Assembly (NCBI GenBank): GCA_964019135.1
Contig: OZ025255.1
Span: 27,529,188 to 27,593,187, forward strand
Source of the DNA: Arenicola marina
Lineage: Eukaryota > Annelida > Polychaeta > Arenicolidae
Length of the DNA stretch: 64,000 nucleotides
Reading direction: 5' to 3'
Made by a program: the position numbers and the translations under genes. Shown one piece after another: positions 16,838 to 49,558 of the stretch (position 1 is its first letter; the number at the start of each line of letters is the position of its first letter). The notes beneath the pieces were generated by a model that was not told where the DNA came from, made no database searches, and saw only the letters and a list, made by a program, of their open reading frames with translations.

Positions 16838-17746
16838 CTAGTTTTTTGAACTAGTTGAACATTCTGACTTGGTGTCAGGTAGGGCACAGTCAGACACGGC
16901 AGGGACCGGCGTCGTTTCTTGTTCCACTTGTTCCCCGGTGTAGTTCTCCCGCCATTGCTGCTGCGAGCTCAGCTGCGGCTCCAGCTGCGGCTGCAATGCC
17001 CCAGGCGCCGACTGAGACTGCTCTGTCTCTCCATCTGTTTCGTCGTCTCTATCTCTACTATCGTCTAACTCTCCAACGCCGAACTGCCTGGCGCCGGCAT
17101 CTTGTCTGTCGTCTCGATGGCCCCCGACCTCCCCAGATGGTTCTCTACCCTCGTACGTGCCTGCTCGCCCTGCCAGCGCATTGCCTCGCTCCCCGCCTAC
17201 TTCCGAGTATGGATCCCCGCCTTTGCCCATAGTTAGCTCCCCGCTTAAGTCCGTCCCGGGTTCCTCGCCTGGTTCCTTGTCCGACTCCTCCCCAGACTCC
17301 TCTCCTAGTACCATCTGGGAGGGCATTTCGAAACCCGGATGTTTGACCCGGATATGACGCAGCAGGCCGCGCCTGTGGCCGTATTTGCAAGGGCAGAAGG
17401 TGCACTGGAAGTAGATATCCACCCTGTGCTTGGCTTCGTGCAGCTCCCACTCGCTGCGACTGAAGAAACCCTTACCACAGCTACTGCACGTGTAGCGGTA
17501 GATGCCGAGGTGTCGGCGCTGGTGCTTTAGCAGATTGTTACGCCGACTGAACATCTTGCTGCAGAGCGGACACTGCAGCTGTCGCGGAACGCCGGGCTGC
17601 TCCCCGGATCGCTCTCCGGACTGCTCCCCGGACCGCTCTCCGGACTGCTCCCCGGGCCGCTCGCAGGCCGCCGCCCAGGGGTTGACGCTGGTGAGACCTA
17701 GCGGGCGCTCTGCCAGGCTGGGACCCATGATGCCGTACGGCTTGCT
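16838..17746 (-). CDS. zf20: terminal zinc-finger exon with long acidic tail
   Basis: The most distal and longest exon of the array: acceptor CTTTCTACTTGCAG, start at 17746 in phase 0, 302 residues, own stop. A Gly/Glu/Ser repeat (GEQSGERSGEQSGERSGEQ, residues 32-50) precedes the fingers. Three C2H2 fingers sit at residues 59-79, 87-107 and 115-136, with the array's typical HLGIYRYTC linker between the first two. A tail of about 165 residues is rich in Glu, Asp, Gly and Gln and could act in regulation. The fingers are closest to zf17-zf19 (GKGFFSRS, CPCKYGHRRGL). It is presumably joined to the leader at 48770. Confidence 0.9.
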   Translation of the reverse strand, partial: SKPYGIMGPSLAERPLGLTSVNPWAAACERPGEQSGERSGEQSGERSGEQPGVPRQLQCPLCSKMFSRRNNLLKHQRRHLGIYRYTCSSCGKGFFSRSEWELHEAKHRVDIYFQCTFCPCKYGHRRGLLRHIRVKHPGFEMPSQMVLGEESGEESDKEPGEEPGTDLSGELTMGKGGDPYSEVGGERGNALAGRAGTYEGREPSGEVGGHRDDRQDAGARQFGVGELDDSRDRDDETDGETEQSQSAPGALQPQLEPQLSSQQQWRENYTGEQVEQETTPVPAVSDCALPDTKSECSTSSKN

Positions 17747-18251
17747 CTGCAAGTAGAAAGAACGCAGGCGATTTTTAAACTGGCCTATATCATGCTATAT
17801 GATTGACCTTTATACCTGCTGCGAGAGGGTGACAGGATGCAACGGATTAACACAAGAAACGTACCAATTTTGTATGTCACATGCGGTTCAAGGTTGTGTC
17901 TAAAAGATACTCGCGCCGAGCGCCAGCTATAATAGTTCAGTGGGTAGTGTAAGGAGCGCCGAGCCGAGCAGCCCACGCAAAGCGTGGTTCTGCAATATGC
18001 CAATATATCTGGGGGTTTTCCTGAACGGCAAAAACCGTGTTGAGTTGCGGCACCCATATTTCAATCAAAACAAAATGCGTGTGGTTATCATACAATTTGT
18101 AATGGCAGATGCTTATTATTGATATTTATAGTTCAACAAACTTTTCCATGGAAACGAGTTGGCTAGTTCGGGAAGTAACCATTGGAAACCAAATGGTCCT
18201 CAGTACTGTGTATGTACTAATGAGACGTGTAACAGGTTCTCTCGAATCCCA

Positions 18252-18510
18252 GGGGCCGTCCGATAGCTCAGTGGGTTACGGCGTTCGCAATGAGCGCTCT
18301 GGCCACCTGAGAGCTTAACGACACTAGATCGGTGGTTCGAGCTCCGCTTTGGTCATGTCTGTGTGGTCGCCAGGATAACGTTCCCGTGTCTTTCTTCGCA
18401 AAGAGTAGGGGTTTACCCCGGGGACATGGCTCCGCTCTTCCCTTCCGTCTCCCGTTGACTCGATATGGCCAGAATTGGCTAAAGCGTCCAAGTTCTTCCC
18501 CATGTCCAAA
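18252..18510 (+). mobile_element. tRNA-derived SINE
   Basis: The head GATAGCTCAGTGGGTTACGG (A box) and GGTGGTTCGAGCTCC (B box) is followed by a body with TCATGTCTGTGTGGTCGCCA, GGGGACATGGCTCCGCTCTT and TCGATATGGCC. It matches the better preserved copy at 60573. It lies in the 17.7-19.7 kb stretch between zf20 and zf19. Confidence 0.8.
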
Positions 18511-19255
18511 CGTCTATCACGAAAGTCCCTCACATAAGCAGATAGGTGCAGTGCTTCCAAAAAAGAGGTAAGACACCGAGCGACAGCTGTCCATTGGTTA
18601 AATTTATAAGGCAACTGCACTTTTTGTATCTGTTGTTCCACAAATAGCAATCGAGTCTCATAAAAGGTGCAATGTGGCACCAAACTGTCGAAAAGTTTAC
18701 TTTGTTCGATCAATATAAGAAGTAAGGCCGTATAAAATTTAATTCTGTTTTTTTTTATTTCAAGCCAAACGGTAGCAACAGAAACACACATAAAAGAGCT
18801 TATACAATAACGGATTCTCCGTTTACGTTGCACACATGCACGCAAATCATGTTTAAAACAACTGATCATTCCAACTAAACATTCAACCAAAGCTGAATTT
18901 ATGTGTGGTAGCTTCACGTTCCCGAGCGGTAAAATACTTGTACGCAAATCAGGTTTAAAACCACTGACCAACTAAACAATCCCTCTAAGCGGAATGCCTG
19001 TGTGGTGGCTTCACGGTGCCTGAGCGGTAAACGAACATGACGCTTCAGGCAAATATTTTCCATTATCAGACAAGGATTTACTTCAGTGGAGCCGTCGTTA
19101 CACTGGTGCCAGGTTGAGGGCAAGCCACAACACCCAGGAAGTGTTCACGCTTGCACTGAGGCGTAAACTTACTTCCGTGACGTGCATCAATAATACACGT
19201 ATTATATTATTACCTGACCTGAGGACGACATGGTGACAATCAGACACATACAAGT

Positions 19256-19420
19256 AACGTGCGTACACATGCGTCACGCGCGTAAACATGCGTCACGCTC
19301 GTAAACATGCGTCACGCGCGTAAACATGCGTCACGCGCGTAAACATGCGTCACGCGCGTAAGCATGCGTCACGCGCGTAAACATGTGTCACGCGCGTAAA
19401 CATGCGTCACGCGCTTAAAC
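19256..19420. repeat. 19-bp minisatellite
   Basis: The unit CATGCGTCACGCGCGTAAA recurs about eight times with few changes. It lies in the spacer downstream of zf19 and has no coding role. Confidence 0.95.
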
Positions 19421-19691
19421 ATAAAAATGCCGTTCACTGCTAGCAGATCTAAAGGATAAAAGGCGACACAAACCCCGTCTCATCTGTCGTAGACCGTTTG
19501 GCTGCATACGGACATTACCAATAGAAAGAGCATGAGACCTTTCTTCGCTGGCACGTACTATTGGTGTCCTGAGGCCGAGCGAGGAGCAATACTCATAGTC
19601 ACTGAGCAGGATGAGACGACTCCATGGTAACTGGAATGGGCAATTCATCGCATTTAGGGACAGATGATGTCCCATATCTATCGTCGATTCG

Positions 19692-20036
19692 TCAGTCGTC
19701 CGCTTGGCTCACTTCGTTGTGCTTGAGCCGCAAGTGTTCCTGCAGGCCGCGCTTGTGTCTGTACGTGCACGGACAGCGGCGACAGCGGAAGGTCACGGGG
19801 CCGGTATGCGTCACCACGTGGTCCTTATAGTGGGTCCGGCAGTTGAAGCCTTTACCGCAGACGGCACATGTGTAACGGAAGATACCCAGGTGGCGCTGGA
19901 GGTGTTCTTTGAGATTGCTCTTGGTGGCGAAGCTTGTTCCACACTGGTCGCAGTACCAGCGCTGGCGTTCCTTATCCCCAGTGACACACACAGAACCGTC
20001 TTGCTGGTACCGGCCATCTTCAACCAAACGAAAAGC
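19692..20036 (-). CDS. zf19: terminal three-finger exon
   Basis: Acceptor CTATCTTTTTTTCAG, start 20036 in phase 0, 114 residues, own stop. Fingers are at 29-49, 57-77 and 85-106. The start AFRLVEDGRYQQ is related to VSGLVDDVRYEQQ of zf18. The three exons zf17-zf19 share QRWxCDQC in finger 1, GIFxYTC in the linker and HKRGLQEHL in finger 3, which indicates local duplication. Finger 2 differs here (GKGFNCRTHYKDH), which would alter DNA choice. Confidence 0.92.
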   Translation of the reverse strand, partial: AFRLVEDGRYQQDGSVCVTGDKERQRWYCDQCGTSFATKSNLKEHLQRHLGIFRYTCAVCGKGFNCRTHYKDHVVTHTGPVTFRCRRCPCTYRHKRGLQEHLRLKHNEVSQADD

Positions 20037-20544
20037 CTGAAAAAAGATAGCCGACACTTAGCAACGTCCACACAGATCGGTGAAAATTAAGGCTGGATGT
20101 AGTATTTCATTCGCTGTGTAAGAACGACACGAAGGGCTTGGATTCTGGGAAGCGTTGGGCTCTGCCGCTATACGATACACCCGTGTCCATGTAGAGCACG
20201 CCACAAAGGCGCCATGAAGCCTTAACTGTCTGCATATCCCATACAATAATGGACGTCCATTCAAGGAGTCTCGTTAGTCTTCCCAGGTTTTCACAATGAC
20301 ATACTTGAACAAGAACACACGACAAGCCGAAGATTCTCGCTTCATCGGGTTTTTTCTCTTGACCTGCACTGCATGGCACGAAAGCTGTAAAGTGGATCGA
20401 CCGGTCACGTTTCGTGATTCCCGCTTCTCAGACAGTGAAGCGCTATTCATCCAGTTGGGGAATAGGATAGGGCCACCGTTGCGTATATAAAAGATAAACC
20501 AAGCCGCGAAATCACAGGGACAATGAGGGGAAAAGAAAGACACG

Positions 20545-20652
20545 TGTGAGGCTTTGAACCCGCAACCGGTTGATCAGTAGTCGACAACGCTGCACCTCAA
20601 CCCCGGCGGCTTCTGCGGGTGGGGTTTGAACCCGCAACCAGTTAGTCAGCAG
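20545..20652 (-). mobile_element. Two tRNA-like (B-box) fragments
   Basis: The minus strand shows two copies of GGTTGCGGGTTCAAA with nearby TGATCAACC/TGACTAACTGG, like the 3' half of a tRNA promoter. A related piece lies near 23030-23060. These look like SINE remnants and not tRNA genes. Confidence 0.45.
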
Positions 20653-20839
20653 GAACAGAAACACCGAGACCAGCGAGCATTAGAAAAGGAATCTAACGCA
20701 CAAGTAAAGGGTTGTACGGATTAATTTCCGTGTTGGCGATGCAAATCGCGCCCCTTAAGTCACCATAAAGCTTACTGTACATCGCCGGACACGTACTATC
20801 TAGCATCACATGTCTTCCATGTACAGACAGTCCGCACGC

Positions 20840-21172
20840 TCAGTTCAGCTGGTGGTGTTTCTTTTTCAAGTGTTCCTGCAACCCTCTCTTGTGGCTGTAC
20901 GCGCAGGGACAGAGGTGACAGCTGAAGATCGCGTTGCCGGAATGCGTCGCCACGTGTTCCTCGAAGTGGCTTCGACTGAAGAAGCCTTTGCCGCACATGG
21001 AACACGTGTAACTGAAGATGCCCAGGTGGCGATGGCGGTGCTGTCTCAGATTGCTCTTGGTGGTGAAGGTCTTAGTACACTGGTCACACGGCCAGCGCTG
21101 GTGCCCGCCAGGCTCGTTGGTCGACAATGACACCTGCTGTTCGTACCGGACATCGTCAACCAACCCAGACAC
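20840..21172 (-). CDS. zf18: terminal three-finger exon
   Basis: Acceptor GTGTCTTTTCAG, start 21172 in phase 0, 110 residues, own stop. Fingers are at 29-49 (CDQCTKTFTTKSNLRQH), 57-77 (CSMCGKGFFSRSHFEEH) and 85-106 (CHLCPCAYSHKRGLQEH). Finger 1 to finger 2 linker is HLGIFSYTC. It is the closest relative of zf17, sharing the start VS(I/G)L and the TTKxNLRQHRxRH block, so the pair is a fairly recent tandem duplication. The acceptor contexts (TCTTTTCAG|GTGTCT) also match. Confidence 0.93.
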   Translation of the reverse strand: MSGLVDDVRYEQQVSLSTNEPGGHQRWPCDQCTKTFTTKSNLRQHRHRHLGIFSYTCSMCGKGFFSRSHFEEHVATHSGNAIFSCHLCPCAYSHKRGLQEHLKKKHHQLN

Positions 21173-21297
21173 CTGAAAAGACACCCGTCACTTAGTACAG
21201 CGCCACAGACCAGCCTTCGGCAGTGCTTCACGATAAATCAGGATCCTCCCTCCCTCTATGTTCAGCTAAGTTATGACCTACGAACAGCCTTCCGGCG

Positions 21298-21303
21298 TTT
21301 ATT
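21298..21303 (-). terminator. Candidate poly(A) signal for zf17
   Basis: AATAAA on the minus strand, between the zf17 stop and the zf18 acceptor. The 748-base distance makes it only a possibility. Confidence 0.3.
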
Positions 21304-21377
21304 TAGCGGAGACCAATCCGTACACAAGAGTTGACTGATCACGATCATCAGTCATTCCCTTTAGCGGTCCATGGCGC

Positions 21378-21600
21378 ATGAACTAAACCAGGACACAACA
21401 AATCGCCTAAACCAAGAAACAACGAATCGTCTAAACCAGGCGACAATGAATCCTCTAAACCAAGAAACAATGAATCGTCTAAACCAGGAGACAACGAATC
21501 ATCTAAACCAAGAAACAATGAATCGTCTAAACCAGGAGACAGCAAATCGTCTAAACCAAGAGCCGAGCATCGTCTAAAACATAAGCCAACGCATTGTCTA
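21378..21600. repeat. 24-bp minisatellite
   Basis: The unit CTAAACCAAGAAACAATGAA then TCGT recurs about eight times, with decayed units to about 21720. It lies in the spacer between zf17 and zf18. Confidence 0.92.
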
Positions 21601-22050
21601 AACCAGAAGCAAATGCATCGTCAGTAATAGGAGCTTAAGAATGTCTAAACCAGTATCCAAAGCATCGCGTAAAACCTGAACGAACAGATAGTCTATAATA
21701 CGAGCCAACGCACCGTCTAGGCATCGTCTGAGCCAGTAAAAAAACCAGTACAGTGCCAAAAACGAGAGGTTGCTTTGGGTTCAGTTGGTAAAACAGTTTG
21801 TCTCATCGTTGTTTATGTATACTTCGTCGGTGCCTACAGACTTAGTAGGCATAACATAGAGTTTTGCGTTGTTCTAAGACACGTAAAATGTTTTTTTTTC
21901 CAACAATAGGTACCGACGGACTCGCTTGCGGGACCTAATGTTCGTTCGTGTCGAACGGTTTGCCGAATCTTCTGTTCAAGTTTGTCCATATTATATGTGT
22001 AATAACAAATTTTACCATCGCGAGAGATTATACCCCGACGCCTGATCACT

Positions 22051-22377
22051 TCAGATGGCATGTTTTTCCTTCAGATGTCGTTTTAGTCCTCTTTTTCGGC
22101 TATAGACGCATGAACACAGCGGGCAGCTGAGGGCGACCTTGCCCTGGTGCAAGGCCACGTGTTCCTCGTGGTGGCTCTTGCTGAAGAAGCCCCTGCCACA
22201 GGTCGCGCACGTGTAACTGAACATGCCCATGTGGCGAAGGCGGTGCTGTCTCAGATTGTTCTTGGTCGTGAAGTCTTTGCCACACTGGTCGCACGGCCAG
22301 CGTTGTTTACCCTGAGTGAAAGGGGCCATTACAGAAGATCCCTTCTCGCCCCATCCATCTCCCGCCAATATAGACAC
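22051..22377 (-). CDS. zf17: terminal three-finger exon
   Basis: Acceptor GATGTCTTTTCAG, start 22377 in phase 0 (VSILAGDGWG), 108 residues, own stop shortly after the last histidine (KEKHAI). Fingers are at 29-49 (CDQCGKDFTTKNNLRQH), 57-77 (CATCGRGFFSKSHHEEH) and 85-106 (CPLCSCVYSRKRGLKRH). Linker 1 is HMGMFSYTC, a variant of GIYRYHC. It is sister to zf18. The region before the fingers is only 28 residues, typical of the array. Confidence 0.93.
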   Translation of the reverse strand: MSILAGDGWGEKGSSVMAPFTQGKQRWPCDQCGKDFTTKNNLRQHRLRHMGMFSYTCATCGRGFFSKSHHEEHVALHQGKVALSCPLCSCVYSRKRGLKRHLKEKHAI

Positions 22378-24229: not shown

Positions 24230-24598
24230 TCACCTAATGCTATGCACTCTCCTCATGTGGTCAGTCAGTCCCTTTTTGTACCAGTAGCTATTGCCACACA
24301 GCTCACACACGTGCTGCTTGATGCCTGTGTGCTTGGTCATGTGGCCCCGCAGCATGCTAGAGGATGAAAAGCCCTTGTTACACTCCGGGCAGTTGTACTT
24401 GTAGATCCCTTGGTGCAGCAACAGGTGGCTGTGAAGACCCTGACTCGACTTGAAAGACACCGAACAGATGTCACATCGCAACCCGCCGCGGCCGGGTGTT
24501 CGTGATTGCTTAGTTTGCTGGGCAATGGTTGCCAACACGTCAGCCATCTGCGATTGGTCGGCATCAGCGCCCATGGCAACCAACAACCCGTCCGCGCC
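24230..24598 (-). CDS. zf16: terminal three-finger exon
   Basis: Acceptor TACTGCTTGCAG, start 24598 in phase 0 (GADGLLVAMG), 122 residues, own stop. A 41-residue lead containing ADQSQMADVLATIAQQTK (perhaps a short helix) precedes fingers at 42-62 (CDICSVSFKSSQGLHSH), 70-90 (CPECNKGFSSSSMLRGH) and 98-119 (CELCGNSYWYKKGLTDH). Linker 1 is HQGIYKYNC and linker 2 is HTGIKQHVC. The YWYKKGL helix recalls YLYKHHL in zf8 and YFYKHHL in zf9. Confidence 0.93.
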   Translation of the reverse strand, partial: GADGLLVAMGADADQSQMADVLATIAQQTKQSRTPGRGGLRCDICSVSFKSSQGLHSHLLLHQGIYKYNCPECNKGFSSSSMLRGHMTKHTGIKQHVCELCGNSYWYKKGLTDHMRRVHSIR

Positions 24599-26703: not shown

Positions 26704-26779
26704 ATATTGTGGTTCAACGGGATTTTCACTGTTCTAATATATCGCATCATGCGTAGCAAAGGAGACATATTGCGACGGC

Positions 26780-27151
26780 TCAAGGTCCAGCTGAGGGCCT
26801 ATGCGGGGGCCCAGCCGGGGGCCCAGCCTCGTGACTGTTAACATGTGCCTTGAGGGAGGTCTGGCATGTATAGGCCTTGCCGCAGACCGGACAGGCGTAC
26901 GGCTTCACCCCGGTGTGTGTGGCCACGTGACCCTTCAGGCCGGCCATGGAGCAGAATCCGCGGTTGCAGTGAGGACAGTGATATCTGTATATCCCCTGGT
27001 GCGCTCGCATGTGGTCTTGAAAGCCGCGGCTACTGGTGAATTGCTTATAGCAGAGATGGCATTGAAACCGTACAACCGCGCCATTCCGCTGCGGGGCGTG
27101 CTGCGTGTACTCAGACGGGCCATCGGAAAGCTTTGCGCCCTTGTCTATTAC
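26780..27151 (-). CDS. zf15: terminal three-finger exon
   Basis: Acceptor CTCTTGTCCTTGCAG, start 27151 in phase 0 (VIDKGAKLSD), 123 residues, own stop. Fingers are at 31-51 (CHLCYKQFTSSRGFQDH), 59-79 (CPHCNRGFCSMAGLKGH) and 87-107 (CPVCGKAYTCQTSLKAH), followed by a Pro/Gly tail (AGPPAGPPHRPSAGP). Fingers 2 and 3 are almost identical to zf14, while finger 1 and the lead differ, so this is a recent duplicate pair changing mainly in finger 1. Confidence 0.94.
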   Translation of the reverse strand, partial: VIDKGAKLSDGPSEYTQHAPQRNGAVVRFQCHLCYKQFTSSRGFQDHMRAHQGIYRYHCPHCNRGFCSMAGLKGHVATHTGVKPYACPVCGKAYTCQTSLKAHVNSHEAGPPAGPPHRPSAGP

Positions 27152-28523: not shown

Positions 28524-28895
28524 TCAAGCTTGAAAGGGGAGTTCCGACACCACTCTGGGTTCAGCCTCGTGAGTTTTCGTATGCGCCTTGAGCGAGGTCT
28601 GACAGGAGTAGGCCTTGCCGCACACCTGACAGGCGTACGGCTTCACCCCGGTGTGTGTGGCCACGTGACCCTTCAGGCCGGCCGTGGAGCAGAAGCCGCG
28701 ATTGCAGTGAGGACAGTGGTATCTATAGATGCCCTGGTGAGCATTCATGTGGTCATTATAACCTTGCATACTGGCAAATTGCTTGCAGCAGATGTGGCAC
28801 TTAGTGCTCCCATCGGCGCCACCATCCCCACGCCGAGAGATGTGCGGCGGGTATACCGGTGGAAAACCGATGCGGGCCCCATCATTGCCAAAGAC
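28524..28895 (-). CDS. zf14: terminal three-finger exon
   Basis: Acceptor CCTTTCTCTTTACAG, start 28895 in phase 0 (VFGNDGARIG), 123 residues, own stop. Fingers are at 33-53 (CHICCKQFASMQGYNDH), 61-81 (CPHCNRGFCSTAGLKGH) and 89-109 (CQVCGKAYSCQTSLKAH). Linker 1 is HQGIYRYHC and linker 2 is HTGVKPYAC, closest in the array to the classical TGEKP linker. Near-identity with zf15 in fingers 2 and 3 suggests overlapping DNA preference, with finger 1 giving the difference. Confidence 0.94.
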   Translation of the reverse strand, partial: VFGNDGARIGFPPVYPPHISRRGDGGADGSTKCHICCKQFASMQGYNDHMNAHQGIYRYHCPHCNRGFCSTAGLKGHVATHTGVKPYACQVCGKAYSCQTSLKAHTKTHEAEPRVVSELPFQA

Positions 28896-31290
28896 CTGTA
28901 AAGAGAAAGGAAATGCCTTAATAGTTACTAATGCAACCGGCACTTAGTCGCAAAGTGTAGACGTAAAGTGAGCGTGAAGTTGAAGATGGTTGCTTGTTCT
29001 TCTTTGAACCGGCCCGGGTACTGCTGGATGGCTAAGTGGGCCTCTCGCTCAGTATGCCCGAAGCCACGGATCGTTAGGAACAGACAACGTTCCACGCGCC
29101 CAGCGTGGACACAACGGTACCTGGTACGGTAGTCATCACACTTCTGTTCTAGACTGTGAATGTGAAATATCTTTTATATTCCTACCGTTCCTTCGCTTAT
29201 TCTTGCAGTGACAGCATTTTTCGTCATCGGAATCGTCACTCATTTAATCCCAGCGAGATTGTTAGAAAGGTGACCACACTGGACTTATGGACTCAGAGGC
29301 ACGGGGAAAACAGAGAGAATCCATAGCTTCGAATAATAAGATCACACGTTCGTTTCTGAAGCAACGTGTGTGTTTATGGAGGCTAAGTTGGGCATAGAAG
29401 CGCGCTTACCATGGATGAGTCACGGCAGCACCCCATCACTTTGGAACTGATTATCGCGGTGAGACAGTGGAGTCTTTTTAATTAGAGAACGATGGTAAAG
29501 TTACTATATAGGGTAATCACCGACGCACCATCTTCACACTTAAACCACCAACCACCAATATGTCAGTCCTTGCGTCACTGGTTACGTCCAGCGTTTAACT
29601 TGGCAGCCACCCATATGTCAGAGAGCGTCACTGGTTACGTCCAGTGTTTAACTTTGCAACCACCGATATGTCAGACCGAGCGTCACTGGTTACGTCCAGC
29701 ATTTAACTTGGCAACCACCGATATGTCAAGAGCGAGCGTCACTGGTTACGTTCAGCATTTAACTTGGCAACCACCGATATGTCAGACCGAGCGTCACTGG
29801 TTACGTCCAGCGTTTAACTTGGCAACCACCGATATGTCAGACCGAGCGTCATTGATTACGTCCAGCATTTAACTTGGCAACAACCGATATGTCAGACCGA
29901 GCGTCACTGGTTACGTCCAGCATTTAACTTGGCAACCACCGATATGTCAAGAGCGAGCGTCACTGGTTACGTTCAGCATTTAACTTGGCAACCACCGATA
30001 TGTCAGACCGAGCGTCACTGGTTACGTCCAGCGTTTAACTTGGCAACCACCGATATGTCAGACCGAGCGTCATTGATTACGTCCAGCGTTTAACTTGGCA
30101 ACAACCGATACGGCAGACTGAGCGAGGGTCACTGATGTAGCGAGTGTTTGTGCCGTGGTCGATTGGTAAATGAGCACGCCTGAACTGTATCGTCATAATA
30201 AAGTGAGAAAAGCATACACTTGTAACCATATATCCCGTATCGCTTCTTGGTTCTTTATTGCAAAATGTACATTTGATGTTATGACGTATAATGTACAAAA
30301 TGTAATTGTCGTCATAAAATGGTCAATTCTATGATAAAACCTGAGACTTCTAATTTAAAACATAAAATAGGCGCTAAAAAATGTACTGAAAAAGTTTAAC
30401 AAGCTCGTATTCTCCAACGTCGTTCATGATTTGTGTCCAGGCATCCAACCGTCCTGTCGTTTGTTTCTGGTTAAGAGTAACTCACACGGTAGAACCACTG
30501 TTCACCAGACTTTCTGAGATTGGTGCTGGTAGAATTTGAGAAGAGCAAGCGACCGGCTGCATGCCGCAAGCGAGCTCTTAAGGTAATGTAGTAAATTCAA
30601 AGTCTATAGCAAATTCCAACGGCACCTACAAACGCTTTTTAGTTGAGTTATGTGCATCAGTTTGGGTGAGTGACCGTCACATATAGCTGCATGACAGAAG
30701 GCCTAAACTTCAAAGTGCGCGACTGACAGCGCCGTCTGACGGAGTCGTATGCTGAAGGAACATGGGAACAAAGTTGCACCACAGGCACGAGCACGTGCCA
30801 AAAACAAACATTGCGCCTGGATCGGACGTTGGTGCTCTGTAAAACGTCTTGCACACACAGATACAAGTGAAAAATCTTGTTGATAGTTTGGAAGAAATTG
30901 ATAGCTAAAAGATTAATATATTCAAAAATGTGATATATAGCCCAGATATTTCAGAATTTCCAAATGCGCCTATTCTTTTTGAAAACCCGCATAGACCCCA
31001 CTATGCGGCAGCAATTCTGGCATCGAAAACCCCAGATTGGGTAGAAATGAGCTTACTGGTTCCACAATCAAATGTTATAAATTTCGATACGGAAGCGTGT
31101 GTGATCGACAGTCACCTCGAAGTTTAACATAAAATTCAAAGAAAACTGCCGCTGCTTTCTCCGCTTACTTTGTGATTAACGACGTCATAATCACCGGATG
31201 AGACATATCCGCTGAGAGGAACTGGTTCTCACGAGCGGCACCAAATTATTCTGGTCAAGAAGAACACATTCGATGATATGAAGGTCAGAA
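28896..31290. other. Spacer between zf13 and zf14
   Basis: It contains the 55-bp minisatellite (29553-30130) and most of a wide inverted repeat (30477-31412). No exon is recognised. Confidence 0.55.
29553..30130. repeat. 55-56-bp minisatellite
   Basis: The unit GTCACTGGTTACGTCCAGCG, then TTTAACTTGGCAACCACCGA, then TATGTCAGACCGAGC recurs about ten times. Two variants (CAGACCGAGC and CAAGAGCGAGC) alternate in a higher-order pattern. Direct repeats without unique spacers rule out a CRISPR array. Confidence 0.95.
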
Positions 31291-31461: not shown

Positions 31462-31746
31462 TCACTGTCCAGGTTTCGACTTGGGGACATTGTTATCGGA
31501 TACAGTAGGAGCGGTGGGAATGTTGTGTTGCCTCGCCAAGTGATTCTTCAAGCCCGTCGTTGAGCAGAAGCCTCGCTCACAAAAGGAGCAGTGGTATCTG
31601 TATATTCCCTGGTGTGTGCGAACGTGGTCTTTACAGCCGTGAGGAGTTGTAAACCTCTTGTAACAGACGTCACACTGATACGGGTAGTCCTTTCCCCACA
31701 TGTGAGGATGCATTGCTGGGTAACCACTTCCACCTTGCTCAAAACT
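31462..31746 (-). CDS. zf13: terminal two-finger exon
   Basis: Acceptor TCTTATCCTTGCAG, start 31746 in phase 0 (SFEQGGSGYP), 94 residues, own stop. There are only two C2H2 fingers: 25-45 (CDVCYKRFTTPHGCKDH) and 53-74 (CSFCERGFCSTTGLKNH), joined by HQGIYRYHC. Where the third finger should be, a 20-residue polar tail (TAPTVSDNNVPKSKPGQ) ends the protein. The open frame is intact, so the third finger was lost cleanly and not by frameshift. Finger 2 keeps a normal terminal histidine, unlike zf4 and zf7. Confidence 0.9.
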   Translation of the reverse strand, partial: SFEQGGSGYPAMHPHMWGKDYPYQCDVCYKRFTTPHGCKDHVRTHQGIYRYHCSFCERGFCSTTGLKNHLARQHNIPTAPTVSDNNVPKSKPGQ

Positions 31747-32922: not shown

Positions 32923-33255
32923 TCACTCAGGACCTTCTGAGAACGACTGCACTCCATCATGGGCCGCCAACATGTGTCGCTTCAGACTCTGCGCGTACGG
33001 ATACGTCTTGCGACACACGGTGCATTGGTAGAGCTTGATGCCTGTGTGTTTGGTCAGGTGGCCGGTGAGACCCTTGGAGCACGAAAAGCCCTGTTGGCAA
33101 TACATGCAGCGGTATCGGTAGATGCCCCTGTGGACCCGACGCACGTGTTCCTCGAGGCCGTGGGACGTCGTAAATAACTTCTTGCATTCTTCACAAACAA
33201 GAATTCGATCCGAGGCCTGGGTCCTGTGCAATTTGTCTTCACCAGGCGTCGTAGC
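32923..33255 (-). CDS. zf12: terminal three-finger exon
   Basis: Acceptor CTTTCCTATTGCAG, start 33255 in phase 0 (ATTPGEDKLH), 110 residues, own stop. Fingers are at 21-42 (CEECKKLFTTSHGLEEH), 50-70 (CMYCQQGFSCSKGLTGH) and 78-99 (CTVCRKTYPYAQSLKRH). Finger 3 is nearly the same in zf10-zf12 (YP(Y/F)AQSLKRHM). The intron just before the acceptor (GGAAAGAAGAGATGAGACC on the plus strand) is also shared with zf11, so the duplication carried intron with it. Confidence 0.94.
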   Translation of the reverse strand, partial: ATTPGEDKLHRTQASDRILVCEECKKLFTTSHGLEEHVRRVHRGIYRYRCMYCQQGFSCSKGLTGHLTKHTGIKLYQCTVCRKTYPYAQSLKRHMLAAHDGVQSFSEGPE

Positions 33256-33718: not shown

Positions 33719-34045
33719 TCACGCAAGCTGCTCTCCGCCGTGAGCCGCCAACATGTGTCTCTTTAGACTCTGCGCGAATGGATACATCTTGTGACATACG
33801 GTACAACGGAAGGGCTTGACGCCAGTGTGTTTGGTAAGGTGGCCGTTGAGGCTCATGGCGTTGGCGAAGCCCTGTTGGCAATATGGGCAACGGTGATTGA
33901 AGATGCCCATGTGGATTTGACGCACGTGGTTTAACAGGTTGCGGGGAGTCGCGTACGACCTCTCGCAGTATTTACAACGGTGAGTGCCAGGCACTACCTG
34001 GTGCTGGAACTGGGCGCTGAGTGAAGTCTCTTCACCAGACGGAGC
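33719..34045 (-). CDS. zf11: terminal three-finger exon
   Basis: Acceptor TCTTTCCTTTTGCAG, start 34045 in phase 0 (APSGEETSLS), 108 residues, own stop. Fingers are at 24-45 (CKYCERSYATPRNLLNH), 53-73 (CPYCQQGFANAMSLNGH) and 81-102 (CTVCHKMYPFAQSLKRH). Linker 1 is HMGIFNHRC, so the usual tyrosine is histidine here. Finger 3 and the end MLAAHGG match zf12, whereas fingers 1 and 2 differ strongly in their helix residues. Confidence 0.94.
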   Translation of the reverse strand, partial: APSGEETSLSAQFQHQVVPGTHRCKYCERSYATPRNLLNHVRQIHMGIFNHRCPYCQQGFANAMSLNGHLTKHTGVKPFRCTVCHKMYPFAQSLKRHMLAAHGGEQLA

Positions 34046-34501: not shown

Positions 34502-34843
34502 CTATTCCACCGTCCCGTGAGATGAAATCATATGCCTCTTCAAGCTCTGTGCATACGGATACGTCTTGTGGCACACTAAACACTCGAATTTGTTGACGCC
34601 GGTATGTTTGGTAAGGTGACCATCCAATCCCATGGTGGAATGAAATCCCATTTCGCAGTATGGACAGTGGTACTTGTAGATGCCCATGTGTACTCGGCGA
34701 ATGTGGCCGGCTAGGGCCTGCGGGGACGAGAATACCTTCCGGCAATGTGAGCACGGAGAGGACGCCTGGGCTTGGTATCCACTCGACGGTAAATCCTGCC
34801 GCTGTACCCACATACCAGGCGTGCCCTCTCCTACATTCGCCGC
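34502..34843 (-). CDS. zf10: terminal three-finger exon
   Basis: Acceptor TCCTCTTCCCGTTGCAG, start 34843 in phase 0 (AANVGEGTPG), 113 residues, own stop. Upstream open frame continues into the intron, but the acceptor and the family pattern fix the start. Fingers are at 31-52 (CSHCRKVFSSPQALAGH), 60-80 (CPYCEMGFHSTMGLDGH) and 88-109 (CLVCHKTYPYAQSLKRH). Finger 2 has EMGFHST in place of the common NKGFSST. It groups with zf11 and zf12 through finger 3. Confidence 0.93.
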   Translation of the reverse strand, partial: AANVGEGTPGMWVQRQDLPSSGYQAQASSPCSHCRKVFSSPQALAGHIRRVHMGIYKYHCPYCEMGFHSTMGLDGHLTKHTGVNKFECLVCHKTYPYAQSLKRHMISSHGTVE

Positions 34844-35242: not shown

Positions 35243-35581
35243 TCATCGTGACCCCAATGGCACCACAGTGCCGTGCTTATCCATCATGTGGTCCTTCAGG
35301 TGATGCTTGTAGAAGTAATCGCTGCCGCAGAGGGAACACACGAACTCGCGGACCCCGGCGTGCTTCGCCAGGTGGCCTCGCAGATTGGTGGTGGCATTGA
35401 AGCCCTTCCCACACTGGTGACAGTGGTAGCGATAGATTCCCTCGTGGCTCTGGATGTGGATTTTATATCCCGAGACGGATGTAAAACTCTTCTTACAATA
35501 CTGGCAGTGGTGAATCTTGCCCAGACGAGGTCCCTCGTGAGGCGGCGGCCTCATCATTTTGCTTCCTATTGCAGAATGCAT
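35243..35581 (-). CDS. zf9: terminal three-finger exon
   Basis: Acceptor GATTCCTTGCAG, start 35581 in phase 0 (MHSAIGSKMM), 112 residues, own stop. Fingers are at 26-46 (CQYCKKSFTSVSGYKIH), 54-74 (CHQCGKGFNATTNLRGH) and 82-103 (CSLCGSDYFYKHHLKDH). Linker 1 is HEGIYRYHC and linker 2 is HAGVREFVC. Linker 2 and the YKHHLK helix of finger 3 match zf8, so these are sister exons. The methionine just after the splice is not the start of translation. Confidence 0.93.
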   Translation of the reverse strand: MHSAIGSKMMRPPPHEGPRLGKIHHCQYCKKSFTSVSGYKIHIQSHEGIYRYHCHQCGKGFNATTNLRGHLAKHAGVREFVCSLCGSDYFYKHHLKDHMMDKHGTVVPLGSR

Positions 35582-36898: not shown

Positions 36899-37474
36899 TC
36901 AAGAGAGATAATCTATCTTTGTTGTCGTCGCCTCTTTGTATTCCCGTGTTTCCAACTGTTCGCCACTCTTCGAACTAATCTCATCAGAATTCTGCCCCAT
37001 CAGGTCTCTTTCTGCAGGCAGTTCAATAAACGACTCTGTCACATGCTCGCCTAACTGTTTTTCATCAGTCTTTCCACTTAATGACTCTGTCGCATGCTCG
37101 CCAGACTGCCCTCCATCAGTCCTTGCACTAAACGACCCTACGTGCTTTTCGCCTCTATTTGTGATAAGCGAATCAGGCGCAACTGCGAGGTGTTTTTCCT
37201 GCAAGTGCATTTTCAGATGGTGTTTGTACAGATACTGTTTTCCGCAGAACGTGCAGGAGAACTCTCGTACGCCAGTGTGTTTGGCGAGGTGCCCTCGCAT
37301 ATTGGAAGTGGAGGAGAATCCCTTGTTACAATACGGACAGTGGTAGCGGTAGATGCCAAGGTGCTGGCGCATGTGGTCCGCGTATCCCGAAGGGGTGAGT
37401 AACTGTTTTTGGCAGGGCTGGCACCACAGTGCTCGACGACCCTGAGCAGCAAGCAGCGTTCCAACGTCGGCCGT
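36899..37474 (-). CDS. zf8: terminal three-finger exon with long polar tail
   Basis: Acceptor CTTCTCCATGTTGCAG, start 37474 in phase 0 (TADVGTLLAA), 191 residues, own stop. Fingers are at 18-38 (CQPCQKQLLTPSGYADH), 46-66 (CPYCNKGFSSTSNMRGH) and 74-95 (CTFCGKQYLYKHHLKMH). About 96 residues follow, including an imperfect internal repeat GEHATESLSGKTDEKQLGEH that is rich in Ser, Thr, Glu and Lys. Only zf20 has a longer tail. The extension could give this isoform its own partner or regulation (inference). It is sister to zf9 in finger 3. Confidence 0.92.
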   Translation of the reverse strand, partial: TADVGTLLAAQGRRALWCQPCQKQLLTPSGYADHMRQHLGIYRYHCPYCNKGFSSTSNMRGHLAKHTGVREFSCTFCGKQYLYKHHLKMHLQEKHLAVAPDSLITNRGEKHVGSFSARTDGGQSGEHATESLSGKTDEKQLGEHVTESFIELPAERDLMGQNSDEISSKSGEQLETREYKEATTTKIDYLS

Positions 37475-38637: not shown

Positions 38638-38883
38638 TTATTCTTGCTCGGTGGGAGGCAAGCATTTGGCCGCGTGATGCTTCAACCCAGTGGTCGATGA
38701 GAATCCCCTCCCGCACCGTGGGCAGTAGTAGTTGTAGATACCGCGGTGTACCAGTTTGATGTGGGTACGCAGGCCAGACATGGAGGCGTACGTACGGTTG
38801 CACTGTGCACACGCCCTTACCACACGGCCATCTGGCTGCACGGTGGCCTGCGTGGAATCCTTTGCCAGCATAGTAAAGCCAGT
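38638..38883 (-). CDS. zf7: terminal two-finger exon with a C2HC second finger
   Basis: Acceptor TCTGTGTTCGTTACAG, start 38883 in phase 0 (TGFTMLAKDS), 81 residues, the shortest exon of the array, own stop. Finger 1 is C2H2 at 25-46 (CAQCNRTYASMSGLRTH). Finger 2 at 54-74 (CPRCGRGFSSTTGLKHHAAKC) ends in cysteine, not histidine. There is no third finger. Linker HRGIYNYYC has tyrosine in place of the usual histidine before the Cys, exactly as in zf4. Together these features pair zf7 with zf4. Confidence 0.91.
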   Translation of the reverse strand, partial: TGFTMLAKDSTQATVQPDGRVVRACAQCNRTYASMSGLRTHIKLVHRGIYNYYCPRCGRGFSSTTGLKHHAAKCLPPTEQE

Positions 38884-39091: not shown

Positions 39092-39421
39092 CTACTTGAT
39101 TAACTGGTCGTGGTGCCGGAACATGTGATCTTTGAGGCGCCGCTTAGAGGCGAACTCCTGCGAACACAGTGGACACGCAAACTCCTTCACTCCAGTGTGG
39201 ATGGCGACGTGCGCACGCAGGGTGGTGCTGGAGGAGAAGCCCTTGTCGCAATGCGGACAGCGATAGCGGTACACGCCACTGTGAAGATTAAGATGCAGCG
39301 TGTAACCCTTCTTCGTCCTGAACTCCCGCAAGCAGATGTGGCAGCGCAGGGGTTGGCCCACAAGGGGGCCGGGCGGGGTTACCCCGTCCATTGGACTGCC
39401 GTCCGCAACCCCGGAAAAGAC
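39092..39421 (-). CDS. zf6: terminal three-finger exon
   Basis: Acceptor TCTGTTTCTCTTCCAG, start 39421 in phase 0 (VFSGVADGSP), 109 residues, own stop. Fingers are at 27-47 (CHICLREFRTKKGYTLH), 55-75 (CPHCDKGFSSSTTLRAH) and 83-103 (CPLCSQEFASKRRLKDH). Linker 1 is HSGVYRYRC and linker 2 is HTGVKEFAC. Both linkers and LNLH before linker 1 are shared with zf5, its neighbour and likely duplicate. The bases before the splice are a good polypyrimidine tract, so the longer upstream frame is intron. Confidence 0.94.
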   Translation of the reverse strand, partial: VFSGVADGSPMDGVTPPGPLVGQPLRCHICLREFRTKKGYTLHLNLHSGVYRYRCPHCDKGFSSSTTLRAHVAIHTGVKEFACPLCSQEFASKRRLKDHMFRHHDQLIK

Positions 39422-39677: not shown

Positions 39678-39998
39678 CTATTCGTTCTCGTGGCATCGAC
39701 GAACGTGCTGCCAAACCTGATACTTGTAGACAAAGCGCTCTGGACAGAGAGGACAGACGAACTCCTTGACGCCAGTGTGTGCGGAGTGGTGGGCGCGTAG
39801 CATCGTGTTAGAGGAGAAGCCCTTATTGCAAAAGGAGCAGCGGTAGCGGTAGACGCCGCGATGAAGATTCAGGTGGTATCTATAGCCGGCCACGGAAGTC
39901 AGCGTCTTGGAACAGAGCTTGCACTGGTACAAGACCCGCCCTCCCTCTCCCTGAAGAATACAGGGAGCGTCCAGTGCAACTGGCGACGGGTGTTCACC
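39678..39998 (-). CDS. zf5: terminal three-finger exon
   Basis: Acceptor GCTTTACTTATCTTACAG, start 39998 in phase 0 (GEHPSPVALD), 106 residues, own stop. The frame stays open from the acceptor, which adds 22 residues before the first in-frame near-start codon. Fingers are at 26-46 (CKLCSKTLTSVAGYRYH), 54-74 (CSFCNKGFSSNTMLRAH) and 82-103 (CPLCPERFVYKYQVWQH). Linker 1 is HRGVYRYRC. A second possible acceptor (ATTCTTCAG) lies 15 codons inside, also in phase. It is sister to zf6. Confidence 0.92.
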   Translation of the reverse strand, partial: GEHPSPVALDAPCILQGEGGRVLYQCKLCSKTLTSVAGYRYHLNLHRGVYRYRCSFCNKGFSSNTMLRAHHSAHTGVKEFVCPLCPERFVYKYQVWQHVRRCHENE

Positions 39999-40495: not shown

Positions 40496-40816
40496 TCATT
40501 GCGAGGGGCCCACGTGACCGGCCTCGGTCTGCTGGGGGCACTGCTTGGCCATGTGCCCCTTCAGCCGGTTGGTAGAAGAGAACCCTTTACCGCAGTGGGG
40601 ACAGTAGTAGTTGTAGATGCCCTGGTGGACGAGCATGACGTGTGTCTTCAGACCGGGCCGCGAGGAGTACTGCCGACCACAGTGCTCACAGGAGTAGACC
40701 GGTCGAGGCCGCCCGGCCCTTTCCCATTGCGACTGCCCCGCGCCGGGGGTCGCCATGGATACAGGTGCCATGCCAGGGTGAGATCCCGCCAGACCCTGCA
40801 CCATTCCAGAATAACT
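40496..40816 (-). CDS. zf4: terminal two-finger exon with a C2HC second finger
   Basis: Acceptor TCTTCTGGCTTAATTGCAG, start 40816 in phase 0 (SYSGMVQGLA), 106 residues, own stop. Finger 1 is at 43-64 (CEHCGRQYSSRPGLKTH). Finger 2 is at 72-93 (CPHCGKGFSSTNRLKGHMAK then QC), so its fourth zinc ligand is cysteine in an H-X4-C arrangement. There is no third finger; a 13-residue tail ends the protein. Linker HQGIYNYYC matches zf7. A Gly/Met/Pro-rich lead of about 42 residues comes first. Confidence 0.92.
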   Translation of the reverse strand, partial: SYSGMVQGLAGSHPGMAPVSMATPGAGQSQWERAGRPRPVYSCEHCGRQYSSRPGLKTHVMLVHQGIYNYYCPHCGKGFSSTNRLKGHMAKQCPQQTEAGHVGPSQ

Positions 40817-41210: not shown

Positions 41211-41498
41211 TTACTGTTGAGCATTGGCGAGGTGCCACCTCATATGACTGTTATAAGATCCAAAATGCTCAAACGACTTCTGGCATAAATTGCAGACAAA
41301 GCCGTTGATTCCTGTATGAACGGCCATGTGTCGCTTCATGGTGGTGGTTGAGGCGAAACCCTTGCCGCAGTGTGGGCAGTGGTAGCTGTAGATACCCTGA
41401 TGTAATAGCAGGTGGTTCTTCAGCCCATGGGGCGTCACGCACACCTTGCTACAAAGAGTACAGCAATACGTCTTCTTGCCCGCGCCAGGCCCCGCGGT
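41211..41498 (-). CDS. zf3: terminal three-finger exon, very short lead
   Basis: Acceptor CGTTTTGTTGCCTTGCAG, start 41498 in phase 0 (TAGPGAGKKT), 95 residues, own stop. The fingers start after only 12 residues: 13-33 (CTLCSKVCVTPHGLKNH), 41-61 (CPHCGKGFASTTTMKRH) and 69-89 (CNLCQKSFEHFGSYNSH). In finger 1 the conserved aromatic residue after the second cysteine is replaced by Cys (KVCVT), a mild departure. Finger 3 EHFG recalls EHLG of zf2 and DHLG of zf1, so zf1-zf3 form a cluster. Confidence 0.93.
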   Translation of the reverse strand, partial: TAGPGAGKKTYCCTLCSKVCVTPHGLKNHLLLHQGIYSYHCPHCGKGFASTTTMKRHMAVHTGINGFVCNLCQKSFEHFGSYNSHMRWHLANAQQ

Positions 41499-42001: not shown

Positions 42002-42310
42002 TTTCTTCAAAAATGCGCAGGTTCGAAACCATCGGCTAGTTAGTTGACACATCATAAATCGACTTGGCAATGACTTGGCACATATCTTCCAACTTTACAT
42101 ACATGAGAATATGCCATACGTTACACAGCCTCGCCATTAATGTACCAAGCACTTGTCGCCTGGTATGACCACAATGAGGTGGGACATATAAGAAATGAGA
42201 CGATGTCACACGTGTCCATTCTCGATAAACTCAGTTCGATTGACAAACATGGCAGCGCCTCTTCTCATAGCTGGTTTCTGGTGTACTGCTGAGATCATGA
42301 GCAGAAAATA

Positions 42311-42697
42311 TCATGTACGTTGGTTATTATTGACGGACTCAGCAGCGTGTTCTTGTTTCAGATGGACGTTGAGAGTGCCTAGATGTTCGAACTCCTGCCC
42401 ACATGTAGGGCAACTAAACTGAGACACGCCAGTATGTATCTTCATGTGTTTCTTCATGGTCGTGCTCGATGAGAAGCCCTTATTACAGCTAGGACAATGG
42501 TACATGTAAATGCCCTGATGGAGGCGTTCGTGTCTCTGCAAACCCAGCTTCGTCACGAACGTCTTCGCACACATGGAACAACTATATGTGATGATCCCGG
42601 CCGCTTCGCCGAGTGCTCCAACTCCGGCGTCGGCAACGGTGTTTTCAGTTACACTGGCCCGCAACAAAGCACCCGTACCGGGAGAGAGCCAATAGCT
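42311..42697 (-). CDS. zf2: terminal three-finger exon
   Basis: Acceptor GATTATTTTGTTGCTTGCAG, start 42697 in phase 0 (SYWLSPGTGA), 128 residues, own stop. Fingers are at 40-60 (CSMCAKTFVTKLGLQRH), 68-88 (CPSCNKGFSSSTTMKKH) and 96-117 (CPTCGQEFEHLGTLNVH). Linker 1 HQGIYMYHC and the block GLQRHERLHQGIYMY are shared with zf1. The acceptor-proximal intron (TTATTTTGTTG) is also shared with zf1. The lead of about 39 residues is Ala/Gly-rich. Confidence 0.94.
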   Translation of the reverse strand, partial: SYWLSPGTGALLRASVTENTVADAGVGALGEAAGIITYSCSMCAKTFVTKLGLQRHERLHQGIYMYHCPSCNKGFSSSTTMKKHMKIHTGVSQFSCPTCGQEFEHLGTLNVHLKQEHAAESVNNNQRT

Positions 42698-43503: not shown

Positions 43504-43869
43504 CTATGCTTGAACGTGGGTTGGCACACTGCCATCATGGTCGTGTTTTTGATGAAACCTCAGGTCGCCCAAGTGATCAAATTCCGTTTGGCAAATGGGA
43601 CATACAAATTTGGACACGCCCGTATGTTTCTTCAGGTGTCTTTTCATGCTGGTGCTCGACGAGAAGCCCTTATTACAGAAGGGACAGTTGTACATGTAGA
43701 TGCCTTGATGCAGGCGTTCGTGTCTCTGCAAACCCATCTTCCTCGTGAATGTCTTGCCACACAATTCGCACCGATACATCAAGGGTTCGGCGGCCCCCGG
43801 TGCTGCTTCCGTTGCGCCAGCAGCACCGGGCCACGACAGATCACCCTCGCTGGGCAAGACCCAAGACCG
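43504..43869 (-). CDS. zf1: terminal three-finger exon nearest the leader
   Basis: This exon shows the array pattern clearly. Acceptor TATTTTGTTGTTTGCAG is followed in phase 0 by RSWVLPSEGD (start 43869), an Ala/Gly-rich lead, three C2H2 fingers, and a stop in the same exon (121 residues). Fingers are at 34-54 (CELCGKTFTRKMGLQRH), 62-82 (CPFCNKGFSSSTSMKRH) and 90-109 (CPICQTEFDHLGDLRFH). Such exons encode sequence-specific DNA-binding ends. With the leader exon the predicted isoform has 380 residues. The decayed exon at 46933 is its closest relative in finger 3. Confidence 0.94.
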   Translation of the reverse strand, partial: RSWVLPSEGDLSWPGAAGATEAAPGAAEPLMYRCELCGKTFTRKMGLQRHERLHQGIYMYNCPFCNKGFSSSTSMKRHLKKHTGVSKFVCPICQTEFDHLGDLRFHQKHDHDGSVPTHVQA

Positions 43870-46800: not shown

Positions 46801-46932
46801 AAGCTGTTTTCAGCTGCCATTAACACAGTAGGGAACACATCAGTGCGCCATGTTGCCACCGACGCTTCGCGTTGCTGCGCGGGCAGCCTCGTTCTGGTGC
46901 CGCATGCATAAATTTTGAGAAGGGCCTATATC
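43870..46932. other. Non-coding stretch
   Basis: No intact finger motif or other domain is seen. The open frame at 44518-44796 on the minus strand lacks the Cys/His spacing. AT-rich runs lie near 45540-45610. Confidence 0.5.
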
Positions 46933-47125
46933 TTGTTCATATTTCTCATAATTAAGGTCCTGCAACTGGTCAAATTCCTGCTGACAGATTGCACAGGTGA
47001 ACTTGGACACACATGTTTTTCTTGATGTAGCCCATTATGTGGCTAACATCGGTTAAGCCCTCATTGCATTTCGACAGTGGTACGTGCAGACGCCGTGATG
47101 TCGCAGCTCAGGTCTCTGGTGCCCT
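46933..47125 (-). pseudogene. Decayed zinc-finger exon related to zf1/zf2
   Basis: On the minus strand, HQRPELRHHGVCTYHCRNAM aligns with LQRHERLHQGIYMYHC...C of zf1/zf2 but meets a stop (RA*). Further on, in another frame, SKFTCAICQQEFDQLQDLN matches SKFVCPICQTEFDHLGDLR of zf1. Loss of the second Cys pair of finger 2, a stop and at least one frameshift show it is dead. It lies between the leader and zf1, so the array once reached closer to the leader. Confidence 0.85.
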
Positions 47126-48769
47126 ACTGAAGGAGGGTTTGGCTTAATCTCCACCAAAGGACATTTGGTCAATGGAAGCAGCCAAGGCGCAAATGCCATT
47201 CATTCCAACAAAGACAAAGTATGTCTTCCACTTCACACTTCATGGAAGAGTGATCTCCGCCTCAGGTTCATCAATGCTGTTCAACATGCATTAAGAGATC
47301 ACATGTACCTCACGCTCCGCATCGATACTCATCCTACACATAATATTGAGTCGCTTCACTTATGTAAAGCTTTGGTAGAACACACAAATGTCGAAATAAC
47401 AACTATGTTGTTCATGAGAGCTGTTTTCTTGTTGAAATGGAACAGATGTAACTCTAGTTTAAGCCGACATGTGGGCAGTAGATTGCTCTTGCAGTACCGG
47501 TAGATTGCCCAAAGCAACATGAAAAAAAGTATATTCCAGACAGAGATATAGCTGCAATTTTTTTTTCAGGCACGCCACATTGGGTCTTACTTTTCTTACA
47601 ATACAATGTCAGGAGATCAACTTCCAAACCGAGAGCAGAAAGTACTTGCCCTCTAGAAGTATTATTTTCCATATAAGTTTAACAGCTTCACTCGATAACA
47701 TTTATCTCTGAAAATGGCAGGCTCAATCTTTTAAGTTTGTAAAGAAAAAGCTACTTTATATGGCTTAGATCAGGTTGTGGTTGCCATATAGTCTGGCACG
47801 GGTTTTCCATTTCTCCAGTAATGTATTGCCGGTAATTACAGCAATGTAATTGCCTGTATGCCAAGGCCAAAGAAAGCAGGGTTGCACCTATCTTCAAAGC
47901 AAAAGTTGCCTATAGCATGCCAAGCAGTACTGCCAATAAACTAGGGCAATTGGCAAAGTCATAAGCCTTAACAAGCACTTGACAAGTTTATAATATATTG
48001 TAAGAGTATTATACCATTTTACCACAACAGTGGAGTTAACAGCAAACGTAACATCAACATTACATAGTGTTGTCACAGCAAGTTTTGCTGGCAAGAGGGA
48101 TAGGAAAACTATTGACAATGTATGTAGCATTTATTGTCACAGTTTTTAGGTATTTTCATAGCTGCATATGAAAGAAATATTGTCCCTTCAGGAAATGGTA
48201 GCATTATGTTATCATGATATCCACAGCTCTAAACTTGATTTACAATATTCTAGTTGTGTTCATAGACAAATAACAGGGGTTGCCAACCTCCTGTCGTATA
48301 GAAACTGCCACCATCTCGTAAATGGGACAAATATTTAAAAAGCTATAATTAACTTGGTCAGCTTAACACCAAATGACCCTTTGTTACATTTCAATATAAA
48401 ATCAGAAACCATAATGCAGCTACAAATTATCAGATTAATCCCTTTCTTTCCCTCATATACACAGAAAAATTACAACCCTGCTAGGTTGATAGCATATACC
48501 ATAATTATTTTCTTGTTCTTTAGAATCTTGTGTTTTGCTACAAAGGGTCATTTAGCGCATAAAAACTAATAATAGATGTTGTTAGAAATGCATCCATGAG
48601 AGACATATGCCTTATTCCAAGGTTAAGTCTGTTACTGATCAAAATTTGCTTTACCTGAATTCAGAAAAATATACTTCAAATTCATTGAATCAATCCAAAA
48701 ATACTACAATTTCATGTTGTCTCTCGTGTATACACCTTGTTTTTGTAATAAAGAAAGCATGGCACAAAC
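47126..48769. other. First part of the leader intron, no features seen
   Basis: AT-rich sequence between the leader donor and the decayed exon. No repeat or exon is recognised. Any element that guides choice among the 20 acceptors might lie here, but I see no direct sign of one. Confidence 0.5.
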
Positions 48770-49558
48770 CTGTGACATTTGAGACATATCTCCACCTTCT
48801 GATGTGATGGTAGATGTTCGAGACATGTTTTGATGTTGGGAGGGGTCAGCCCACATATTCTGTGCTGATGACTGAGATGGTCCGGCTCCCAAAGAGTCTG
48901 AACCCAAAGCCTGGGCCAAGTCAATATCACCATATGGAGCCTGTGTATTATAACACACATTTTGTTCTGATGCCGAATCGTCAATTTCTTCCTTTATAAT
49001 AATGATATCATTGTTTGATGAGGAATGTACATTTCTTCTCTTGGCATTTGGCGGTTCAGTGGAGGAGCCCTGGGATTGGAAACTGGATTCATCATAGGTG
49101 GCCGGACTGAGATCAGGGTCTGGTGGGCTCTTTTGATTCCATGAATCATCTGCCGGCCAGTGACCACCATTTTCGTCGCCAGCTCCTTGTTCTGACAATT
49201 CTTGCTTTACACCTGATAATGTTCTTTTTCTATTTTGTCGTCTGTTAGTATCAGAGGAGCCCGTCTTGTGTTGACTGGAATCCCTATCACTCGGGAAATG
49301 TGGTGAACTGTCCTCAACAAAACTGTCATCATTACTTTCATTCTCTGCAATGGACTGTGCTTTGGCCAACTGATTTTTCACTGTCTCATTAATTGACACA
49401 TGAAAGACCTCTTCATCATCCAATGTAAACACAATCAGAGCCTCCATGGAGAATTGAGTGTCAAAACTGAGGCCATTTTTACATAGCAGGGTGAGTGTGT
49501 CCTTGATCAAAGCCCGGATTCGCTGTTGATCCCCTTTAACCACCATGATGAAGTTGTT
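48770..49558 (-). CDS. Leader exon A: conserved N-terminal domain shared by zinc-finger isoforms
   Basis: The exon starts after acceptor TTATATTTTCAG (49558), has 12 bases of 5' UTR, and ATG at 49544-49546. It encodes 259 residues and ends in phase 0 with CAG before donor GTTTGT (48769 down). Residues 1-58 form a compact conserved domain (MVVKGDQQRIRALIKDTLTL, CKNGL, MEALIVFTL, VFHVSINETV); it is not BTB, SCAN or KRAB and I do not recognise the family. The rest is polar and acidic, with basic RRQNRKR (102-108), VKQE (113-116) and IIIIKEEIDD (181-190), the last two fitting the SUMO-site pattern. It probably mediates dimerisation or cofactor binding (inference). All downstream finger exons accept phase 0. 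Confidence 0.88.

Follow-up and report, generated by a model that had tools for sequence, protein, structure and literature searches.

Can a gene outside the BTB families join one N-terminal part to a large array of alternative zinc-finger ends? The question is raised by a locus of the polychaete Arenicola marina (contig OZ025255.1, positions 27,529,188 to 27,593,187 of the forward strand; this whole stretch of 64,000 nucleotides is called the window, and coordinates count from its first letter). A preliminary description, made from the letters alone, read positions 16838 to 49558 as a lola-like gene in which one leader exon, encoding an unrelated N-terminal domain, precedes 20 alternative terminal exons. 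Our analysis supports that interpretation. We conclude with considerable confidence that this is a single lola-like transcription-factor gene, with a shared leader spliced onto about 20 alternative finger ends.

The decisive test, set beforehand, was whether any transcript joins position 48770, the end of the leader, to a finger exon, and one such junction was found. In a public protein search with leader residues 1-70 as the query, 16 candidates were scored and five returned. The protein P0001 (338 amino acids) comes from a 1330-nucleotide contig of a close relative, labelled 'lgn', which we take to mean assemblies of public read sets. It is 94% identical (319/340) to the leader followed by the seventh finger exon, without a gap at the join, and its finger part alone is 97.5% identical to that exon over 81 amino acids. 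The join coincides exactly, at both ends, with the donor at 48770 and the acceptor at 38883; these stand 9.9 kb apart in the window, and the six finger exons between them are skipped. The gap-free join implies that, in the close relative, splicing of the leader uses the donor and the acceptor that had been predicted.

The leader exon (48770..49558, minus strand) thus has a 3' junction seen in P0001, while its 5' end is placed by a good-looking acceptor just before it. It comprises 12 nucleotides of 5' untranslated region (UTR), an ATG at 49546 and 259 codons that end in phase 0. The position of the acceptor, just before the ATG, suggests that a further 5' UTR exon lies upstream. Within the window this is the only leader upstream of the finger exons on their strand. 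The single phase-0 exon of the preliminary description stands, with two corrections: its donor departs from the consensus, and its frame, said to have no stop, meets one when left unspliced, 21 codons past the donor (48704-48769, minus strand). An unspliced leader would yield a finger-less protein; this possible isoform resembles the read-through ends of several public relatives described below.

We next consider the ends. A motif scan of the window gave 57 C2H2 motifs on the minus strand, grouped in 20 units that run from 43869 down to 16838; 51 of the 57 also fit a stricter core pattern. The rest of the window gave loose matches only (three on the plus strand and five on the minus strand) and no strict ones. 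All 20 units satisfy the C2H2 pattern, and the two that were scanned against Pfam matched PF00096 well above its cut-off of 25.2 bits (unit 1, 54.2 bits; unit 15, 45.8 bits). The plan of these cassettes is broadly constant: a finger, an H-x-G-[IMV]-[YF] link, a second finger and, in 17 of the 20, a third. Every unit has an open frame, a stop of its own and an AG acceptor in phase 0, with 12-58 codons between acceptor and first finger, bearing out the 20 minus-strand terminal exons first described.

All units lie on the minus strand and are numbered from the leader. Two fingers are present in unit 4 (40496..40816), unit 7 (38638..38883) and unit 13 (31462..31746); in units 4 and 7 the last finger has Cys in place of the final His, and unit 7 is the sole unit seen joined to the leader. 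The others have three. Nine of these contain no in-frame ATG from the preceding stop up to their first finger: unit 2 (42311..42697), unit 3 (41211..41498), unit 5 (39678..39998), unit 11 (33719..34045), unit 12 (32923..33255), unit 14 (28524..28895), unit 15 (26780..27151), unit 18 (20840..21172) and unit 19 (19692..20036). The remaining three-finger cassettes are unit 1 (43504..43869), unit 6 (39092..39421), unit 8 (36899..37474, with a long tail), unit 9 (35243..35581), unit 10 (34502..34843), unit 16 (24230..24598), unit 17 (22051..22377) and unit 20 (16838..17746). The tail of unit 20 after its fingers (16838-17338) is long, acidic and rich in Gly and Glu.

To judge the acceptors, we scored 84 stop-bounded frames from the rest of the window in the same way. 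The highest-scoring acceptor falls in phase 0 in 20/20 units versus 27/84 control frames (binomial P about 1e-10), and its mean score is 6.5 in the units versus 1.9 in the controls, with 17 of the 20 units above the control's 90th percentile. Unit 18 has the weakest acceptor (score 0.8). For unit 17 the AG at 22311 scores best, above the one at 22377; both are in phase 0. Helix positions -1, 2, 3 and 6 are the standard contact numbering for zinc fingers, and at these positions the 20 units present 20 distinct sets of residues, some of which differ by a single residue (units 14 versus 15, for example). The cassettes presumably bind DNA.

Taken together, these data suggest a simple mechanism. 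The conserved small N-terminal domain would come from the leader exon, together with a linker that bears motifs of the SUMO-acceptor type. From the donor at 48770 the message would continue, in phase 0, into one of about 20 terminal exons, and each of these carries a cassette of two or three C2H2 fingers with its own stop and, presumably, its own poly(A) site. Each choice would give the same front part a different DNA-contact surface. The choice itself may depend on ordinary competition between splice sites and poly(A) sites, because shared pairing elements were not seen: in a search for Dscam-type docking pairing, exact complementary words of 7-9 bases recurred across the units no more widely than they did in 20 shuffles. 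The most likely route is cis alternative splicing of one pre-mRNA. The same proteins could in part be made by trans-splicing, with cassettes that have their own promoters and a leader that arrives from another transcript. PMC11426971 states trans-splicing for lola and mod(mdg4), and the locus spans about 33 kb behind a non-consensus leader donor; however, all 20 units lie downstream of the leader on the same strand, so cis splicing suffices, and we consider a contribution of trans-splicing unlikely.

A second alternative grants the single gene and supposes that most cassettes are idle, with just one or a few in use and the others being duplicated exons that drift. The history of the array bears on this. 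The nearest relative of a unit is an adjacent unit in 14 of 20 cases, a number reached in 0 of 10000 permutations, and the closest pair, units 14 and 15, shares 81% amino acid identity. Nine of the 22 inner branches of the cassette tree are poorly supported; the supported clusters (1-3, 5-6, 8-9, 10-12, 14-15 and 17-20) track physical order, with the exception of the non-adjacent units 4 and 7, which group together. P0001's fingers group with unit 7. As far as sequence relationships go, this pattern shows that the cassettes arose by tandem duplication. A 21st cassette, absent from the preliminary inventory of 20 intact units and one leader, has decayed: it contains in-frame stops and sits between the leader and unit 1 (46912..47127, minus strand), with units 1 and 2 as its nearest kin (tblastn E 1.8e-7 and 6.5e-6, respectively).

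That decayed copy, the weak acceptor of unit 18 and the fact that the unit 7 isoform alone has been found are what one would expect of drifting exons. Against this, all 20 frames are open, the 57 counted fingers retain their zinc ligands, and 17 acceptors exceed the control percentile given above. Moreover, the ratio of nonsynonymous to synonymous divergence (dN/dS) could be computed for 12 of the 14 closest unit pairs and is 0.10-0.44 in these; dS is above 0.5 in all 12 and above 1.5 in nine of them, so these ratios are rough. We therefore regard a largely drifting array as improbable. The codon comparisons show signs of purifying selection on the cassettes, and the front part is conserved. 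The history of the array is consistent with cassettes gained by tandem duplication and lost again under such selection. A third alternative, some 20 independent zinc-finger genes beside an unrelated leader gene, can be put aside as very improbable: C2H2 genes often lie in tandem clusters, an in-frame ATG precedes the fingers in 11 of the 20 units and separate upstream exons are conceivable for the rest, but a start codon for each finger exon is contradicted by the nine units without one, which makes free-standing single-exon genes unlikely, the best acceptors are uniformly in phase 0, and P0001 fuses leader and cassette, contradicting independence for unit 7.

If the cassettes are of a familiar kind, what is the front part? 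The N-terminal domain, of about 70 amino acids (49331..49546, minus strand), is predicted to consist of a helix (residues 3-23), two strands (31-42 and 46-57) and a second helix (59-70). An AlphaFold2 model of residues 1-76 alone has a mean predicted local distance difference test score (pLDDT) of 80 and a predicted template modelling score (pTM) of 0.55, and gives a helix-hairpin-helix as the predicted fold. The protein may dimerise through this domain. As the preliminary description had claimed, the N-terminal part is, by sequence, unrelated to BTB: hmmscan of Pfam-A gave no BTB family for the whole leader (E up to 1) or for the domain alone (E up to 10), nor was there one among the 25 of 43 Pfam families listed for 35 family members. 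No BTB structure appears among the structural matches listed for the domain, an absence that is no proof in itself. Structure comparison found no clear PDB fold for it, and it has no Pfam family.

Two candidate identities were considered. A MADS-box, as in MEF2, SRF and SEP3, rests on weak structural matches with a negative profile comparison, and is a lead only; the STN1 C-terminal domain (PF09170) scores 16.6 bits against a Pfam cut-off of 27.2, and of the 35 family members three match it with E no higher than 0.1, the lowest value being 0.0069.

The domain nevertheless recurs in public data. An alignment search, in which the 7993 candidates sharing most words were scored, found 32 proteins, and the total set is P0001-P0033; there are thus at least 33 public relatives, three of them annotated 'hypothetical protein'. 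No relatives were found in viral_contigs. Five relatives continue into two or three fingers: P0001, and also P0002, P0004, P0008 and P0024, which have the leader domain followed by fingers on contigs of 1.4-1.8 kb. P0008 reads ...SHNPD and then enters its finger exon; P0007, 89% identical to it, reads ...SHNPD and then VSKII. The end of P0007, like several other finger-less ends, looks like intron read-through at the point where the spliced members join, as a GT intron would read; many of the finger-less relatives look like such read-through or like fragments, and others are short. Separately, P0016 seemingly carries two N-terminal domains in tandem.

Several observations weigh against a single gene with 20 working ends. 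One of the 20 junctions has been seen, in a near relative rather than in this individual; of the approximately 20 transcription factors first proposed, one is thus documented and the use of the remaining 19 acceptors is inferred. P0001 itself is a contig of unstated kind rather than a read alignment. A search with all 20 units gave no second near-identical protein; this search was shallow (E up to 1e-20) and a weak test, using at most 100 words for the 20 units under length limits and returning proteins of 162-320 amino acids. Among the 37 finger proteins that it found, the best identity for any unit other than 7 is 61%, again to P0001. The leader donor after 48770, CAG/GTTTGT, is non-consensus. 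Although 17 of the 20 units (all except 1, 9 and 18) have AATAAA or ATTAAA within 1.5 kb past the stop, we estimate this count to be near chance level and do not use it as evidence for terminal exons. Among the public relatives, 28 of 33 have no fingers, and P0005 has the same front part with a basic, finger-less tail that looks real. Finally, the fingers of P0004, P0008 and P0024 form a group of their own apart from all units, and those of P0002 are unplaced in the tree; because these more distant relatives' fingers do not group with the units, the evidence for orthologous cassettes, and for the array, extends no further than the near relative.

The linker between domain and fingers offers a further clue to function. 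It contains two motifs of the SUMO-acceptor type (psi-K-x-E), IKEE at 48986..48997 and VKQE at 49199..49210, both on the minus strand. We counted such motifs in linkers longer than 120 residues, comprising the two leaders in the window (see below) and 31 public proteins, after P0019 and P0020 had been dropped as too short. The motif is kept in 31/33 linkers versus at most 10/33 in 300 shuffles, and a stricter form in 27/33 versus at most 4, with motifs counted at any place in the linker rather than at a fixed alignment position, and in sequences that, being related, are not independent. It seems reasonable to expect that SUMO is attached to the linker, and that repression comes with it.

The window holds a second, divergent and paralogous leader exon, not in the preliminary inventory (60988..61752, plus strand; 255 codons, ending in phase 0). 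It stands head to head with the first and has a consensus donor, TTG/gtaagt. The N-terminal domains of the two leaders are 85% identical over 65 amino acids; outside the domain the leaders diverge fast, with 36% identity over 164 aligned codons. No fingers were found downstream of the plus-strand leader up to the window end, so any terminal exons that it has lie past that point. On balance we favour a broader proposal, that the locus belongs to a previously unrecorded non-BTB family with one front and many ends, which would combine a new and perhaps dimerising N-terminal domain, a SUMO-regulated linker and cassette arrays of lola size, and would occur in many little-annotated species, having been duplicated here into the divergent second locus.

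Elsewhere in the window, two minus-strand open frames (5564-5875 and 6059-6304) match Serinc (PF03348) in Pfam and are probably exons of one gene. Large minisatellites occupy 1-897, 1644-2952, 3434-5578 and 29549-30124, with main periods of 64, 39-41, 26 and 55 bases. Scans of the window for transfer RNA genes and Rfam families were empty.

How does this design compare with known systems? To our knowledge, insect BTB genes supply most of the described cases of swapped terminal finger exons. A described non-BTB gene of this size was not found in the literature searched, with subscription journals mostly outside it. The tramtrack, fruitless and Broad-complex genes encode BTB zinc-finger proteins with alternative finger exons, as here; unlike the present locus, they have BTB domains and few alternative ends. 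Drosophila pip and PGRP-LC, which are neither zinc-finger nor BTB genes, also have alternative terminal regions, and PMC9013439 gives pip (pipe) eight tandem clusters of terminal exons. In Drosophila mod(mdg4), at least 30 isoforms share one N-terminal part, with a BTB front and mostly FLYWCH ends, according to PMC11426971. It shares the one-front design and differs from our locus in both that front and those ends.

The closest parallel is Drosophila lola, in which a constant N-terminal part is joined to many alternative 3' finger exons, and whose size is matched here: PMC11426971 counts 20 isoforms, 17 of them with C2H2 fingers, and PMC3262752 more than 20, of which 17 or more have fingers. 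The latter source also describes lola's BTB domain, and a pair of one CCHC and one C2H2 finger that most isoforms have. Our locus has no BTB match and an unrelated domain of about 70 amino acids, and it lacks lola's CCHC-C2H2 pair: 17 units have three C2H2-type fingers and three have two. If our reading is true, the design arose more than once, independent of BTB chemistry; on the broader proposal above, the family would have arrived at the lola solution on its own. The N-terminal domain, absent from Pfam, is open to characterisation, and 20 cassettes on one frame form a natural set for the evolution of finger specificity and of terminal-exon choice. Overall, this is a locus that works like lola without belonging to the lola family.

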